Source: a virus. Taken from it: a DNA stretch of 43,761 bases. The translations under genes were made by a program, and so were the position numbers. Under the pieces are notes generated by a model. That model had not been told where the DNA came from and did no database searches. It saw only the letters and a list, made by a program, of their open reading frames with translations. Positions 134 through 43,761 of the stretch are shown one piece after another (position 1 is the first letter of the stretch; each line of letters begins with the position of its first letter). The stretch covers positions 1-43,761 of the IMG/VR virus record IMGVR_UViG_3300034631_000071; one strand, given 5' to 3'.

Positions 134-355
134 ATGAGTACGGATCAAGACAGCGCAGACCATCTGCGGACCACCGCCGCAGAACAGACGGCACTTCTAC
201 TCAACCGCGCGTCGGAGCGACGCGAGCGTGCCGATCAGCTTATGGCCGAAGGGCTGCGGGCGGCGGGCGGGCCCGACGCTTCTTCCATCGCCCATGCCGC
301 CGCCTGCTTTACCGTCGCGGCTGCGCTTCGTGGCGACGCGAGGTTCTTGCCGTGA
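134..355 (+). CDS. Small hypothetical protein, first cargo gene beside attL
   Basis: 73 residues, unrecognised. The N-terminal two thirds are hydrophilic and helical with an Arg/Glu-rich stretch; the C-terminal part is Ala-rich and more hydrophobic. The start at 134 is chosen for the GGAG at 121-124, about nine bases upstream; an earlier in-frame ATG at 113 has no better site. The stop overlaps the next start (ATGA at 352-356 region), so the two genes are translationally coupled. In the circular phage this gene would lie immediately downstream of attP and the integrase. Confidence 0.65.
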   Translation: MSTDQDSADHLRTTAAEQTALLLNRASERRERADQLMAEGLRAAGGPDASSIAHAAACFTVAAALRGDARFLP

Positions 356-1053
356 TGGCGCTGGTCTATCACGGAACACCGCTGACGCCTCGTCCGGCGT
401 TGATGGCCGTCGCGGGCCGCGCCTTCTGCGTCAGCTATTTCCGCCCTGACAACGTGGAGGACGTGGAGAGGATTGCCCCCTTCGTCATGTACGACAACGG
501 TGCCTTTTCCTACTGGATGCAGGCCGTGCGCGCCGGGGCAGACCCGATGGACGCGGGAAGGCTCGACTGGACGAACTATTACGAATGGCTGGAGGAGCGG
601 CTGTTCGTGCCCGGCCGCTGGGCGGTCATCCCCGATAAGCCCGCCGCGCCGTCGCAGATGAACGACGGCCTGCTGAACGAATGGCCGTTCGGCCGTTCGC
701 GAGGCGCACCGGTGTGGCACATGGATGGGCCGATCGACCGCCTCGGCAAGCTGTGCGAGCGCTTCGACCGCGTGTGCCTCGGCTGGATCGGAGATCCGAA
801 AAAGGAGCCGGTCGGCTGCGACGCCTACCGCGCCCGAATGGATGAGGTCGCCGCGCTGTTCGGCAACGACTGGCCCCCGACGCATATGCTCCGCGGCGTG
901 CTGGTGGGCGGCGACTATCCATTCGTGAGCTGCGACAGCACCAGCCTCGCGCAGAATCACCACCGCTACCGCCAGCCGCTGTTCGCCGGGACGCCCGACG
1001 AATGGGGCGGGGTGCGCGCCTACGCCGACAAACTGGAAAGGATGGCCGGATGA
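355..1053 (+). CDS. tRNA-guanine-transglycosylase-like (DpdA-like) TIM-barrel protein
   Basis: 232 residues starting in an ATGA overlap with the gene before. Three elements recall the TGT superfamily, which exchanges guanine for 7-deazaguanines in tRNA or, in DpdA, in DNA. YDNGAFS at residues 46-52 corresponds to the DSGGFQ substrate-binding loop. GVLVGGD at 181-187 resembles the glycine-rich strand end. SCDSTS at 192-197 lies where TGT has its nucleophilic Asp. It is far shorter than bacterial Tgt (about 370 residues) and lacks the zinc-binding C-terminus, as do short phage and DpdA-type members. What is seen is the motif order; the base-exchange activity and the nucleic acid substrate are inference. 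No preQ0 synthesis genes are in the window. Confidence 0.5.
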   Translation: MALVYHGTPLTPRPALMAVAGRAFCVSYFRPDNVEDVERIAPFVMYDNGAFSYWMQAVRAGADPMDAGRLDWTNYYEWLEERLFVPGRWAVIPDKPAAPSQMNDGLLNEWPFGRSRGAPVWHMDGPIDRLGKLCERFDRVCLGWIGDPKKEPVGCDAYRARMDEVAALFGNDWPPTHMLRGVLVGGDYPFVSCDSTSLAQNHHRYRQPLFAGTPDEWGGVRAYADKLERMAG

Positions 1054-1109
1054 CCACCGCCGATCGTGCTACAGCAGAGAAGGCCCTTGAATGGGGGAGG
1101 GAGGGGTAG
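1050..1109 (+). CDS. 19-residue ORF bridging two genes (possible coupling peptide)
   Basis: This tiny frame starts in an ATGA overlap with the stop of the TGT-like gene and ends one base before the ATG at 1110. Its last codons form the purine-rich GGGGGAGGGAGGGG that serves as ribosome-binding site for the next gene. It may simply keep ribosomes moving to 1110. There is no evidence that the peptide itself matters. Confidence 0.25.
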   Translation: MTTADRATAEKALEWGREG

Positions 1110-1385
1110 ATGCAGACGACTGACCCCATGGAGCGGCTGATCGAGGCCGCGCTGATCGACGCGGGCATCGCGTATGAGAGCGACAACGGCGGGGGTAGCC
1201 CTGCCAACCTCGACTTCTACCTTCCGGCCTTCGATCTTCATATCGAAGTGAAGCGCCTGCACAGTGACCGGATCGCGGCGCAGATGGCGCGGGCCGAGAA
1301 CGTGATCGTGGCTCAAGGCAAGCCGGCGGTGGAAGCGTTGGCCCGTATGATAGCAGCCCTTCCCACCGACCCTTCACAGGAATAG
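1110..1385 (+). CDS. Small PD-(D/E)XK nuclease-like protein
   Basis: 91 residues. An N-terminal helix is followed by LDFYLP (Asp35), a strand-turn-strand and IEVK (Glu46, Lys48). That gives a D-x10-E-x-K pattern typical of minimal PD-(D/E)XK nuclease cores, and the following helix (residues 51-85) fits the fold. Phages carry many such small nucleases in recombination, packaging or host-takeover roles; which applies here is unknown. A strong purine-rich ribosome-binding site precedes the ATG. It lies directly downstream of the TGT-like gene and probably shares its transcript. Confidence 0.6.
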   Translation: MQTTDPMERLIEAALIDAGIAYESDNGGGSPANLDFYLPAFDLHIEVKRLHSDRIAAQMARAENVIVAQGKPAVEALARMIAALPTDPSQE

Positions 1386-3423: not shown

Positions 3424-5672
3424 GCGCTCGCGCTCCAAGTGCCGGGCGTGCCGGTCGTATTGCAGACGGTCTTCGAGAGGGTGCTGGTAGGATTGTTGAA
3501 CTCGATCCGGTCACCCTGCCTGCCTGGGAAGCCCGCAGGCGGGGTGGTGTCCGCGCTGAGTTTCTCGCGAGGACTCTTGTAAGTCGTGCGATCCGGGCCG
3601 CCGCTGCTGTCTACGCCCACAGGGACAATCGACAGGCCTACCCAGCGGGTGGTGACGCCGACGCCGTAGCGGGCGCCGGTGAACAGACGTAGCGCACCCC
3701 ATCCCTCGTCGCTGCTGACCGAAATGGCCGCACCGCCCGACGCGTGCCCCTGGATGGTAGGATCGCCAATGATCGACGCCCCGACGCAGCTATTTGCGAA
3801 GGTGTCCACGGCAATTCCGAACTTGGCGCTTTCGCCGCTCTCCAGCCCGATCACGCCGCCGTTTACGGTCGTCGCGGTCGAGCGGCCGACGAAGACGTTC
3901 GCTCGGCCCATCCCTGCCCGGTTGTTGAAGCTGACCTGTGCGTCGGTGACGGTGCAGCGGAGAGGGGCCGCTTGCCCCATGCCTGCGCCGTATTCGGAAA
4001 CGAGGACGCCCTCCATGCGGCATAGCGTGGCGCGCGGTCGGACGAAATGCACATCGACCGCCCGATCGCCGGATTGATGGCCGACGTAGTGGCCGGTCGA
4101 GCCGCAATCGGTGAATGTGCCCCCGCGCTGCTGGATGACGCGGATGCCGATGCCTTGTTCTGTGACCCCGGACGGAGCCTTGCCGGTCACCCGCTCCATG
4201 CTCATGTTTGTCAACGCCAGAGGCGGCACAAGCGCGCTGTAGCCGTTCTGCTCTACAGCACGCTGCACGTTGTCGGCGAGTGTGTCCGAGTAGATCAGGT
4301 TCCCGCTGACCCCGGTGTCGGGGCAGGAGATATCGCGAAAGACTATGTTCTGGTAAGCGCGGCGCTTGTCGTCCTCCCGCGCAAACTCGAACCCTAGGTC
4401 GCCGCCCGTGTGCCGCACGGTGGCATAGGTTGTAGCCTCGACACTGAAGTCCTCGACCAGCACGTTGTAGCAGCCCGACCAGCGCGTCCCGTGCGAGCCG
4501 GTGTCCGTGCCGGTGGTAGGCTGGTTCAGCTTGCCAGCCCGAATTTTGCGCACCGTCCAATCGTGCGGATGGGTTGTGTACCCAGTGCCGTTGTCGAACG
4601 CCGTGCGGCTCCCAGCGATGTTCTCGCTGCTGATCGGCCCCACCGTGCCCCAGTCCGCATGGACGACCCCGAACATTCGGTCGTTATCTGGAACCGTGAT
4701 GTTTTCGATCAGGCCAAACGAAGAACCGCCCATGATTGCAATAGCCACCCCACCCACAGGATTCTGACCATTACCGTCGTAGGCGAGCTTATTCGTCGTT
4801 AGGGTGCCGGGGCCGATTACCTGCACGTCGGTGATGCCTTCGTCGGGGCTGAGGCTACTTGTGCTGGTCGATGCTCCGTACCGAGGGCCAATAGTCACGC
4901 AGGCATGGGCCTGCGTCTGCTGTGATGGCGAGCCACTGCTGTTGACGGTGATAGACCCGCCGTTGAGAAGGAGCCGCGACCGCGACCGTAGTCGCACACC
5001 GGGGTCATCAGAACCGGACAGGTTCAGCACCAGCGCCGCGCCATTGAGGTCGAGGGTCACGCCCTCTTTGATGATAGGCGCGGGGGTGCAATTGTAAGTA
5101 CCACGGGGTAGGCGCACCAAATCTCCCGACGTGGCGCTGTCAATCGCGGCCTGGATCATAGGATATGCATTCGGAGCCGCCCCAATGATGGGCACGATAT
5201 CGGTAGCCGGCCTGCGCACCCATGCACCGACAGACAGCGCCGTGCTGTCCGCCTTGATGATGTTCACGTCATCGGCTTGGCCGGTGTAGTTGCCGAGGGT
5301 CCAATTAAAGCGCCCGTCCGGAATGCCGGGGACGCCAACGAGGGATGCCGTCTTGCGCCCGATGTCGGATGCCTTGAACGCGGCCAGCAGGATGTAGGTG
5401 TTGTCCGACGCGCCCGGCGGGCCAACGGTTTCGGGAGGCGTGCCGATCGTGACCGCCTCCTTTGCATAGGACACACCGCCCAAGCGATAATCCAGCTGGT
5501 AGTAACCGTCCGGCGCCTCGATGGCGAAAGCTCCGAAAGCGTCCGTCACAGCGGGTTGCGGCGACACACCCGTTGCCGTCGAGCCGTCACGATTGAGCGT
5601 GAAGACCTGAATGCCTTCGACCGGGCGGCTGTAGCCGCTGTCGTCTACGACGGTGTTGCTATAGCTGGGCAT
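3420..5672 (-). CDS. Tailspike with pectin-lyase-like beta-helix
   Basis: 750 residues from the ATG at 5672; a TTG 33 bases earlier is possible but less likely. The N-terminus (about 1-120) looks like a carboxypeptidase-regulatory or Ig-like particle-binding domain. From about residue 180 (MIQAAIDSATSGDLVRLPRGTY) begins a right-handed beta-helix of the kind seen in tailspikes and pectate lyases, with repeated GGSI, GVTL and NITV coils. Such proteins bind and often cleave capsule or O-antigen. The catalytic residues cannot be named from sequence alone. It follows the short tail-adaptor genes and precedes the lysis module, the P22 gp9 position. Confidence 0.8.
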   Translation of the reverse strand: MPSYSNTVVDDSGYSRPVEGIQVFTLNRDGSTATGVSPQPAVTDAFGAFAIEAPDGYYQLDYRLGGVSYAKEAVTIGTPPETVGPPGASDNTYILLAAFKASDIGRKTASLVGVPGIPDGRFNWTLGNYTGQADDVNIIKADSTALSVGAWVRRPATDIVPIIGAAPNAYPMIQAAIDSATSGDLVRLPRGTYNCTPAPIIKEGVTLDLNGAALVLNLSGSDDPGVRLRSRSRLLLNGGSITVNSSGSPSQQTQAHACVTIGPRYGASTSTSSLSPDEGITDVQVIGPGTLTTNKLAYDGNGQNPVGGVAIAIMGGSSFGLIENITVPDNDRMFGVVHADWGTVGPISSENIAGSRTAFDNGTGYTTHPHDWTVRKIRAGKLNQPTTGTDTGSHGTRWSGCYNVLVEDFSVEATTYATVRHTGGDLGFEFAREDDKRRAYQNIVFRDISCPDTGVSGNLIYSDTLADNVQRAVEQNGYSALVPPLALTNMSMERVTGKAPSGVTEQGIGIRVIQQRGGTFTDCGSTGHYVGHQSGDRAVDVHFVRPRATLCRMEGVLVSEYGAGMGQAAPLRCTVTDAQVSFNNRAGMGRANVFVGRSTATTVNGGVIGLESGESAKFGIAVDTFANSCVGASIIGDPTIQGHASGGAAISVSSDEGWGALRLFTGARYGVGVTTRWVGLSIVPVGVDSSGGPDRTTYKSPREKLSADTTPPAGFPGRQGDRIEFNNPTSTLSKTVCNTTGTPGTWSASA

Positions 5673-42377: not shown

Positions 42378-42667
42378 CGTATATGTCCGCGGTCGCCCGA
42401 AAGTACCGTCGCGCGCTGCGCAACGAGACGGGCGTCCACTTCACACACGACGAGTTGCGAGCCTTCGCCGAATGGGGCGCGCTCGAAATCGCCAGCCATG
42501 CGGAAAATCAGGAACTATGTCCCGTAAATCAGTCGAGCCGTACCGCGTCGGCGACTTCTGGCTCAGCACGCGGCGAGACGGCAAGTCGCCCGGCATCTGG
42601 CAGATCACCCGCTACTCAGAGGCCTCTCGGTGCGACGTTTATCGAAGCGCTCGCACTCGGGACCTAG
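42374..42667 (+). CDS. Small ORF overlapping the integrase start
   Basis: 97 residues, ATGA-coupled to the SNase-like gene. Residues 1-48 (VARKYRRALRNETGVHFTHDELRAFAEWGALEIASHAENQELC) look like a real helical domain. From about residue 48 the frame runs inside the integrase gene for 151 bases and becomes Ser/Ala/Thr-rich without order. The gene may have been truncated and its end replaced when the integrase module was joined. Confidence 0.4.
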   Translation: MTYMSAVARKYRRALRNETGVHFTHDELRAFAEWGALEIASHAENQELCPVNQSSRTASATSGSARGETASRPASGRSPATQRPLGATFIEALALGT

Positions 42668-43761
42668 AGGTCGCCAAGGAGAAGCTTCACGCCCACGTCG
42701 AGAAGGAGCGGTCGAAGAAACCGCAGACAGCCGAGGAGGCGCTGATCGTGCCGCAGCTCAACCTCTACTGGAAGGAGCATGGCGAGAACACCCGCAAGCC
42801 GGGCACGATCGCCACCAGCCTCCGCGCCTTCATCGGCTTCCTGATGCAGGACGAGCTAGGCCCCGCCGCCACGGTCAGCAGCTTGCGGCCGGTCGCCTTT
42901 GCCCGCTTCCGCAACTGGCGGATGAAGCCGCACAGTTTCACCGTGCCGTGGGGCGGCAAGCCGATGGTGGTGGAGAGCGACGGGGTGCGCGGCGAGACTG
43001 TCCAGCGCAACCTTGATGACGTGCGCGCCGCTCTCAATCACGCGGCAGCCAACGGGCGCATCCCCTATGCGCCGAAAGTGCCGTCAGTGCCGACGACGAT
43101 GCGATCCCCTGCCAGGGACGTGCGCGTATCTCTGGAGGATCTAGGCGCCATGATCGGCTTTGCGTCGTCCGAGACGCTGACCGCGGGCGATCCTCTACCA
43201 GCCGACGAGGATTTCACCCGCTGGCTGTGGCTGATGATCGCGACCGGCTGCCGGCCGGAAGCGGCGATGGCCTTCGATCCGCGCGCGCAATGGCGGGGCG
43301 AGTTTATCGAGTTGCACCCGCCGTCACAGCCAAGGACGAAGAAACGAAACCCGGTGGTGCCGACGATCGAGCCGTTCAAGCCGATCCTTGAGGCATGGCG
43401 AGGGAGCAACAGCACGGCGGTGAAATCCCGGCGCACTGCATGGCGGACCATGCGCCGCGCGCTGGATCTTCCCGCTGACGTGATCCCGAAGACGATCCGC
43501 CACACCGTCGCGACCGAGCTTCGCAGCATGAACGTGCCGGGAGAGCAGGTTTCCGGCTTGCTGGGGCACCGCGCCATGCACCGGACGACCGAGGTCTACG
43601 CCAAGTACGATCCGGCCTATCTCCGCGAAGCGAAGGCGGCGCTGACCACCATTTTCGAGACGGTCCAGCGACACGCCAAAACATGGCTCGCGGACCACTC
43701 GCGGACCAAAGTAGGAAATGGTCGCGTGATAGTCGTTGCCCGCGAAAGCGGGAAAGTGTAG
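42517..43761 (+). CDS. int: Tyrosine-recombinase integrase
   Basis: 414 residues from the ATG at 42517, AGGA six bases upstream; a longer frame from 42310 overlaps the SNase-like gene. An N-terminal arm-binding-like region is followed by a core-binding domain (about 75-190) and the catalytic domain. Arg246 sits in ATGCRPEAA. Box II reads PKTIRHT with Lys325 where His is usual and Arg328. Then come LGHR (His351) and the nucleophile Tyr361 in TEVYAKYDPAY. It recombines attP with the tRNA-Val 3' end. The window ends at its stop codon. Confidence 0.93.
   Translation: MSRKSVEPYRVGDFWLSTRRDGKSPGIWQITRYSEASRCDVYRSARTRDLEVAKEKLHAHVEKERSKKPQTAEEALIVPQLNLYWKEHGENTRKPGTIATSLRAFIGFLMQDELGPAATVSSLRPVAFARFRNWRMKPHSFTVPWGGKPMVVESDGVRGETVQRNLDDVRAALNHAAANGRIPYAPKVPSVPTTMRSPARDVRVSLEDLGAMIGFASSETLTAGDPLPADEDFTRWLWLMIATGCRPEAAMAFDPRAQWRGEFIELHPPSQPRTKKRNPVVPTIEPFKPILEAWRGSNSTAVKSRRTAWRTMRRALDLPADVIPKTIRHTVATELRSMNVPGEQVSGLLGHRAMHRTTEVYAKYDPAYLREAKAALTTIFETVQRHAKTWLADHSRTKVGNGRVIVVARESGKV

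Follow-up and report, generated by a model that had tools for sequence, protein, structure and literature searches.

A DpdA-like gene at a prophage end belongs to a phage lineage with recurrent +1 frame breaks at UUU_Y sites

Singleton DpdAs formed the largest phage DpdA group in a 2019 survey, in which functional divergence within the group was left open (PMC6884629). Two of them come from phages without preQ0 genes whose DNA has been studied. In phage MED16, dADG amounts to about 0.13% of the guanines of the DNA (PMC8306585), and in Salmonella phage 7-11 to about 0.02% (PMC6884629). Both levels are very low, and the MED16 modification gives little protection from restriction enzymes (PMC8306585, PMC6884629). 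In the case of Orion, a phage with a similar singleton DpdA, no 7-deazaguanine was found in the DNA, and its host makes no preQ0 (PMC6884629). The singleton DpdAs of MED16 and 7-11 are the nearest studied relatives of the enzyme described here.

The gene for this enzyme lies near the left end of a 43,761-base viral record from IMG/VR, the whole of which is referred to below as the window. Direct reading of the minus strand revealed the 3' half of a tRNA gene at positions 26-70, running from the anticodon loop TTTACAC to CCA and read as tRNA-Val (UAC). This half occurs once in the window, ARAGORN reported no complete tRNA there, and the half is probably an attachment-site remnant. At the other end, a putative integrase ORF of the tyrosine-recombinase type (42517-43761, plus strand, read directly from the sequence) stops at the last base of the record, and would lie directly upstream of the TGT operon once the phage is circular. 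Since a half tRNA stands at the left end and an integrase-like ORF at the last base, the window reads as a trimmed prophage, in agreement with the initial annotation, which had placed the locus at a prophage end.

Beside the attachment site, four ORFs follow each other on the plus strand. The 73-aa ORF at 134-355 ends in a stop that overlaps the start of the TGT-like gene (TGATG); it has one weak relative, located at the same position in locus L009, and family searches gave no match with an E-value below 0.09. The TGT-like gene itself (355-1053) encodes 232 amino acids. A 19-codon ORF (MTTADRATAEKALEWGREG, 1050-1109) overlaps its stop (ATGA) and abuts the start of the next gene (TAG ATG), and is a possible coupling cistron. 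The last gene, at 1110-1385, encodes a 91-aa PD-(D/E)XK-like protein. The coordinates first assigned to the two larger genes, from ATG at 355 to TGA at 1053 and from ATG at 1110 to the stop at 1385, proved to be exact. Beyond this group, lysis and structural genes lie on the minus strand. The TGT-like gene, an accessory gene, has the attachment site on one side and the lysis genes on the other. The phages of its lineage appear to be of alphaproteobacterial type, judging from the character of their sequences and from a context of sphingomonad and rhizobial phages.

The 232-aa protein fits the phage family phrog_887, named 'queuine tRNA-ribosyltransferase', with an E-value of 2.4e-32. The same family also takes in two DpdA proteins, from phage 9g (2e-98) and Pantoea phage MED16 (3e-70), and 104 phage records match the TGT-like protein. 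No Pfam or NCBIfam match was obtained for the protein, and direct reading found no CxCxxC zinc motif in it. When a profile of 55 sequences was compared with 9g DpdA by hhalign, the probability was 93% (E=2.6e-7) and both motifs, YDNGAF and SCDST, lined up; a comparison with E. coli TGT alone by the same program gave no match. In an alignment of six proteins, residues D72, H196 and D215 of 9g DpdA correspond to D47, H177 and D194 of the window protein, all three of which are invariant in its 55 homologues. The motifs YDNGAFS and SCDSTS, on which the TGT/DpdA-like reading had originally been based, are both present, and their aspartates are D47 and D194. According to the paper that defined the group, His196 is the residue missing from DpdA2 (PMC6884629).

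The structure prediction and fold search proposed with that reading were carried out. The AF2 model of the 232-aa protein is a confident TIM barrel (pLDDT 92, pTM 0.88), and TGTs are among its best matches. The VIA comparison returned mostly TGTs, with Z-scores of 12.4-13.5; Cap10 of type IV CBASS (9ntn) came first with 13.6, while the DpdA crystal structure 7ui4 scored 12.5. A few unrelated TIM barrels (YdjI, PdxJ) reach scores similar to those of the TGTs; the fold is therefore compatible with TGT function without being proof of it. By Foldseek alone, general TIM barrels rank first and none of the matches falls below an E-value of 0.001. TGTs come up only once the matches are re-aligned with VIA, and the fold evidence therefore ranks below the profile match to DpdA; from the structure matches it is the predicted general barrel alone that is secure. 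When the PDB sequences were searched with the TGT profile, the only matches were spurious ones to polynucleotide kinase (E 0.013), which were discarded. The DpdA-like reading of the gene at 355-1053 is backed by the profile match, by the residues of the active site and by the predicted fold. In locus L067, a TGT-like gene is found in two tandem copies on one contig (3553-4128 and 5001-5642).

What is known of the studied singleton relatives, taken with the searches for preQ0-pathway genes in the window, led us to read the 355-1053 gene, on balance, as a singleton phage DpdA (DpdA/TGT_1) that would insert host-made preQ0 at low frequency, most likely into DNA. By gene content, the window appears to belong with the singleton group and not with the DpdA phages that have a preQ0 pathway of their own. 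Searches for QueC, FolE, QueF and PTPS gave no match in the window, so the preQ0 would have to be made by the host, presumably through its queuosine pathway. The minimal TIM-barrel enzyme would act by base exchange: selected guanines would be taken out, most likely from DNA, and a 7-deazaguanine base put in their place, namely preQ0, which is seen as dADG in the studied relatives. If the chemistry is like that of TGT, D194 would serve as nucleophile and D47 as acid/base.

Relatives of the gene frequently have a divergent QueD/PTPS-like gene as neighbour. Among 100 distinct loci with sufficient flanking sequence, it was found beside the TGT-like gene at 23, of which 20 are in the window's lineage (52 loci) and three are among the 48 others. 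Mostly it is found immediately upstream and with an overlap at the start when the TGT-like gene is unshifted, or directly downstream when the TGT-like gene is frame-broken in the way described below, so that its side mostly switches between unshifted and shifted members. Upstream genes occur in L002, L003, L006, L008, L012-L014 and L025, and downstream ones in L031-L034, L046, L049, L050, L114, L115, L117, L118, L126, L171 and L173. Three histidines of the type that binds zinc (H16, H25 and H27) are invariant in the encoded protein. Its profile matches PH0634, a PTPS-family protein in the PDB, with an E-value of 6.6e-5, and its scores with Pfam PTPS are under the cut-off. The usual catalytic cysteine is missing, which makes QueD activity doubtful. 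The same profile, which detected four positive records, found nothing in the window. As genetic evidence of an independent kind, this neighbour gene points to a link between the lineage and 7-deazapurines, and the lineage ties singleton DpdAs to a QueD/PTPS-like gene.

Many of the TGT relatives match the window protein in two reading frames. A frame-aware alignment was made of 197 loci, 116 of which were distinct after crude de-duplication. A break was found in 40 loci, corresponding to about 39 of the 116 distinct genes (L116 and L172 are one contig), counts in which related genes are not independent; L040, a fragment, was left out. The broken genes are L015, L016, L028, L031-L037, L039, L041-L051, L097, L098, L114-L118, L126, L133, L163, L164, L171-L173, L177, L179 and L182. 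All the breaks are +1, with one per gene, and there are no in-frame stops except for an alignment artefact in L051. Every break falls on UUU_Y, at one of four positions. The site at residue 46 is found in 28 genes (AUG_UUU_CGA) and that at residue 190 in 10 genes (mostly CCN_UUU_CNN), while the sites at residue 74 (CCC_UUU_CUA) and residue 43 (CCC_UUU_UGU) are represented by L047 and L163, respectively. Two of these four positions immediately precede the aspartates presumed to be catalytic. UUU is used at every site although UUC is the commoner codon for phenylalanine (431 to 158). Pattern matches in L121, L122 and L125 turned out not to be frame breaks, and a match at site 190 in L126 was rejected, this gene being broken at site 46.

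Several of the carriers are isolate genomes according to their IMG numbers (2858563428, 2788500572, 2706794567, 2829787817, 2931122664 and 2829944697). In the named phages and plasmids that were listed, no frame break was seen and each match was a single piece. The copy in the window is likewise unshifted, and the frameshift therefore bears on the lineage and not on the expression of the window gene itself. In the tree, where several of the deeper nodes are weak, at least nine changes of site type are counted, and L163 (site 43) groups as sister to L164 (site 46) with full support. One fragment, L180, starts at residue 46 and its -1-offset frame is free of stops (0 versus 4.3 expected); it may represent a shifted gene that was truncated where the contig ends.

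The sequence beyond the break evolves as a protein. The pN/pS ratio is 0.32 after the break, in the shifted frame, compared with 0.27 before the break and 0.27 in unshifted genes, which indicates purifying selection on the protein encoded past the break. The unshifted frame is constrained in another way. After site 46 it contains 19 stops in the 28 genes, versus 131 expected when each gene's own synonymous codons were shuffled, and it is entirely stop-free in 24 of the 28 versus 0.5 expected. No such depletion was seen in the other frame, in the region before the site or in unshifted genes. Of the 19 stops, 16 are in L117. This gene is the only site-46 member with a stop-filled unshifted frame, and its first two codons past the site are stops. 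The same depletion is found at a different site in L163 (0 versus 4.0), and a weaker one in L047 (0 versus 1.6, P 0.09). Dual coding of the unshifted frame for an amino-acid sequence was considered and rejected: synonymous differences amount to 0.71 after the shift versus 0.68 before it, and without a drop in synonymous change the sequence of the unshifted product is not conserved. In the simplest account, the majority of ribosomes pass the site without shifting, and the mRNA needs to be kept covered.

Taken together, these features suggest, with a probability of about 0.8, that in these alphaproteobacterial phages the expression of a DpdA-like enzyme is controlled by programmed +1 frameshifting on UUU_Y, that the sites, which span four codons, have arisen or moved repeatedly, and that the unshifted frame is kept stop-free for about 150 codons so that the mRNA remains covered by ribosomes which do not shift, a possible protection from Rho-dependent termination, for example; the window would then hold an unshifted member. 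From comparative genomics, the full enzyme of many relatives would be produced only if the ribosome slips by +1 on UUU_Y. Frameshifting at UUU-pyrimidine sites in bacteria was reportedly the subject of a 1997 paper. No report of recurrent +1 frame breaks in DpdA-like genes was found in the literature searched, and as far as that literature shows, recurrent programmed +1 frameshifting would be without precedent in a base-modification gene of a phage. A class of +1 site, UUU_C with a CGN codon in the A site, was predicted by Firth et al. in 2012 from influenza PA-X (PMC3498833). The idea that the shift senses the queuosine state of tRNA-Asp was dropped, as a Q-type codon (Asp, Tyr) is present only at sites 46 and 74, and sites 43 and 190 have none in the shifted A site. 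The approximately 39 shift sites form a natural collection with built-in controls, namely the unshifted sister genes such as that of the window.

Single-base indels are the usual sequencing error and most carriers are metagenome contigs, and the split genes could on these grounds be taken for sequencing or assembly errors, or for decaying pseudogenes. We give this explanation hardly any credence: the breaks, about 39 in number, are all +1, one per gene, all on UUU_Y and at four positions, several of them are in isolate genomes, the pN/pS past the break is 0.32 against 0.27 in unshifted genes, and the unshifted frame is selectively stop-free. As regards the function of the enzyme, the substrate of cellular TGT families is tRNA, and a phage TGT with this predicted fold and these catalytic residues might alter host tRNAs in infected or lysogenic cells, at G34 or at a different guanine. 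Such a role is unlikely, since the window protein is closer to the DNA-acting 9g DpdA than to TGT, lacks the zinc motif and a Pfam TGT match, and has relatives whose phages carry modified DNA (PMC8306585, PMC6884629). Distinctly less probable is a protein that binds or removes a protein-attached 7-deazaguanine in the manner of Cap10, for example as a counter-defence decoy. Cap10, a remodelled TGT-family protein (PMC11996544), is indeed the top structural match, but its Z-score is tied with those of ordinary TGTs and every DpdA catalytic position is retained in the window protein. Moreover, no Cap9/QueC-like gene was found in the window, and none scored over the cut-off in 40 related phages.

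The initial annotation had also proposed that the TGT-like protein and the following nuclease form a pair, for modification and restriction or for anti-restriction. The two genes are adjacent on one strand, and the 1110-1385 product has an E...D...ExK motif (E8, D35, E46 and K48), of which E8, D35 and E46 are invariant in six relatives. Profile matches are weak (mREase_II, E=0.0028) and a PDB sequence search with this protein gave no match. The model of the 91-aa protein is weak as well (pLDDT 71); its helix-strand-strand-strand-helix order fits PD-(D/E)XK, while no nuclease fold was among its Foldseek and VIA matches, all with Z below 5. The motifs fit the description as a minimal nuclease, and the model is of too low quality to confirm a nuclease fold. 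Likewise, the suggested coupling of the two genes is at best indirect, through the 19-codon ORF. Whether the two genes co-occur elsewhere was surveyed in the 100 distinct TGT loci that have 400 nt or more of sequence to either side, the nuclease being sought within about 1.2 kb, and it was found in the window alone (1/100). It gave no match in 40 whole related records, the downstream genes of TGT relatives at 57-92% identity are all different, and the closest relatives of the nuclease, in ten Rhizobium phage records and L017, have no adjoining TGT-like gene. A scan of genome contigs with the nuclease returned only three distant actinobacterial fragments. As each gene is widely found without the other, an outcome that the initial annotation had named as refuting, the module was rejected, and a functional pair is very improbable; the nuclease-like gene appears from its distribution to be unlinked cargo, a chance neighbour and not a partner. 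In L010, a gene overlapping the TGT start (4468-5001) resembles phage endonuclease I/DUF1064 (E about 0.01-0.03), a nuclease-like neighbour of another kind than that of the window.

Compared with known systems, the reading as a singleton DpdA places the window enzyme next to those of MED16 (gp38) and 7-11, which are also small TGT-like barrels from phages without preQ0 genes. They are homologous to it over nearly the full length at 32-36% identity, and the MED16 protein shares phrog_887 with it. The window lineage differs from them by its 232-aa protein, its frequent QueD/PTPS-like neighbour, its many +1 frame breaks and its alphaproteobacterial-type phages. The DpdA of Enterobacteria phage 9g, experimentally shown to be a preQ0 DNA insertase, is linked to the window protein by the profile match and the aligned D/H/D residues; it is, however, 317 aa long and lies inside a full preQ0/G+ gene cluster, whereas QueC, FolE, QueF and PTPS were searched for in the window and none was found. 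Bacterial and archaeal TGTs share the predicted TIM barrel (VIA Z about 13, 211-219 residues aligned), but the window protein is far shorter, is only about 10% identical and is without the zinc motif or a Pfam TGT match. Cap10 has the highest structural score against the window model and binds a modified protein N-terminus, while no QueC-like gene was found in the window and PADLOC gave no match. In the case of the shift sites, the closest described system is influenza PA-X (UCC_UUU_CGU), and the sites of the relatives, NNN_UUU_CGN or UUU_Y, are of the same class (PMC3498833). The window copy is itself without a shift site, and those of its relatives, unlike that of influenza PA-X, are found in bacterial DNA phages, at four positions of an enzyme gene.
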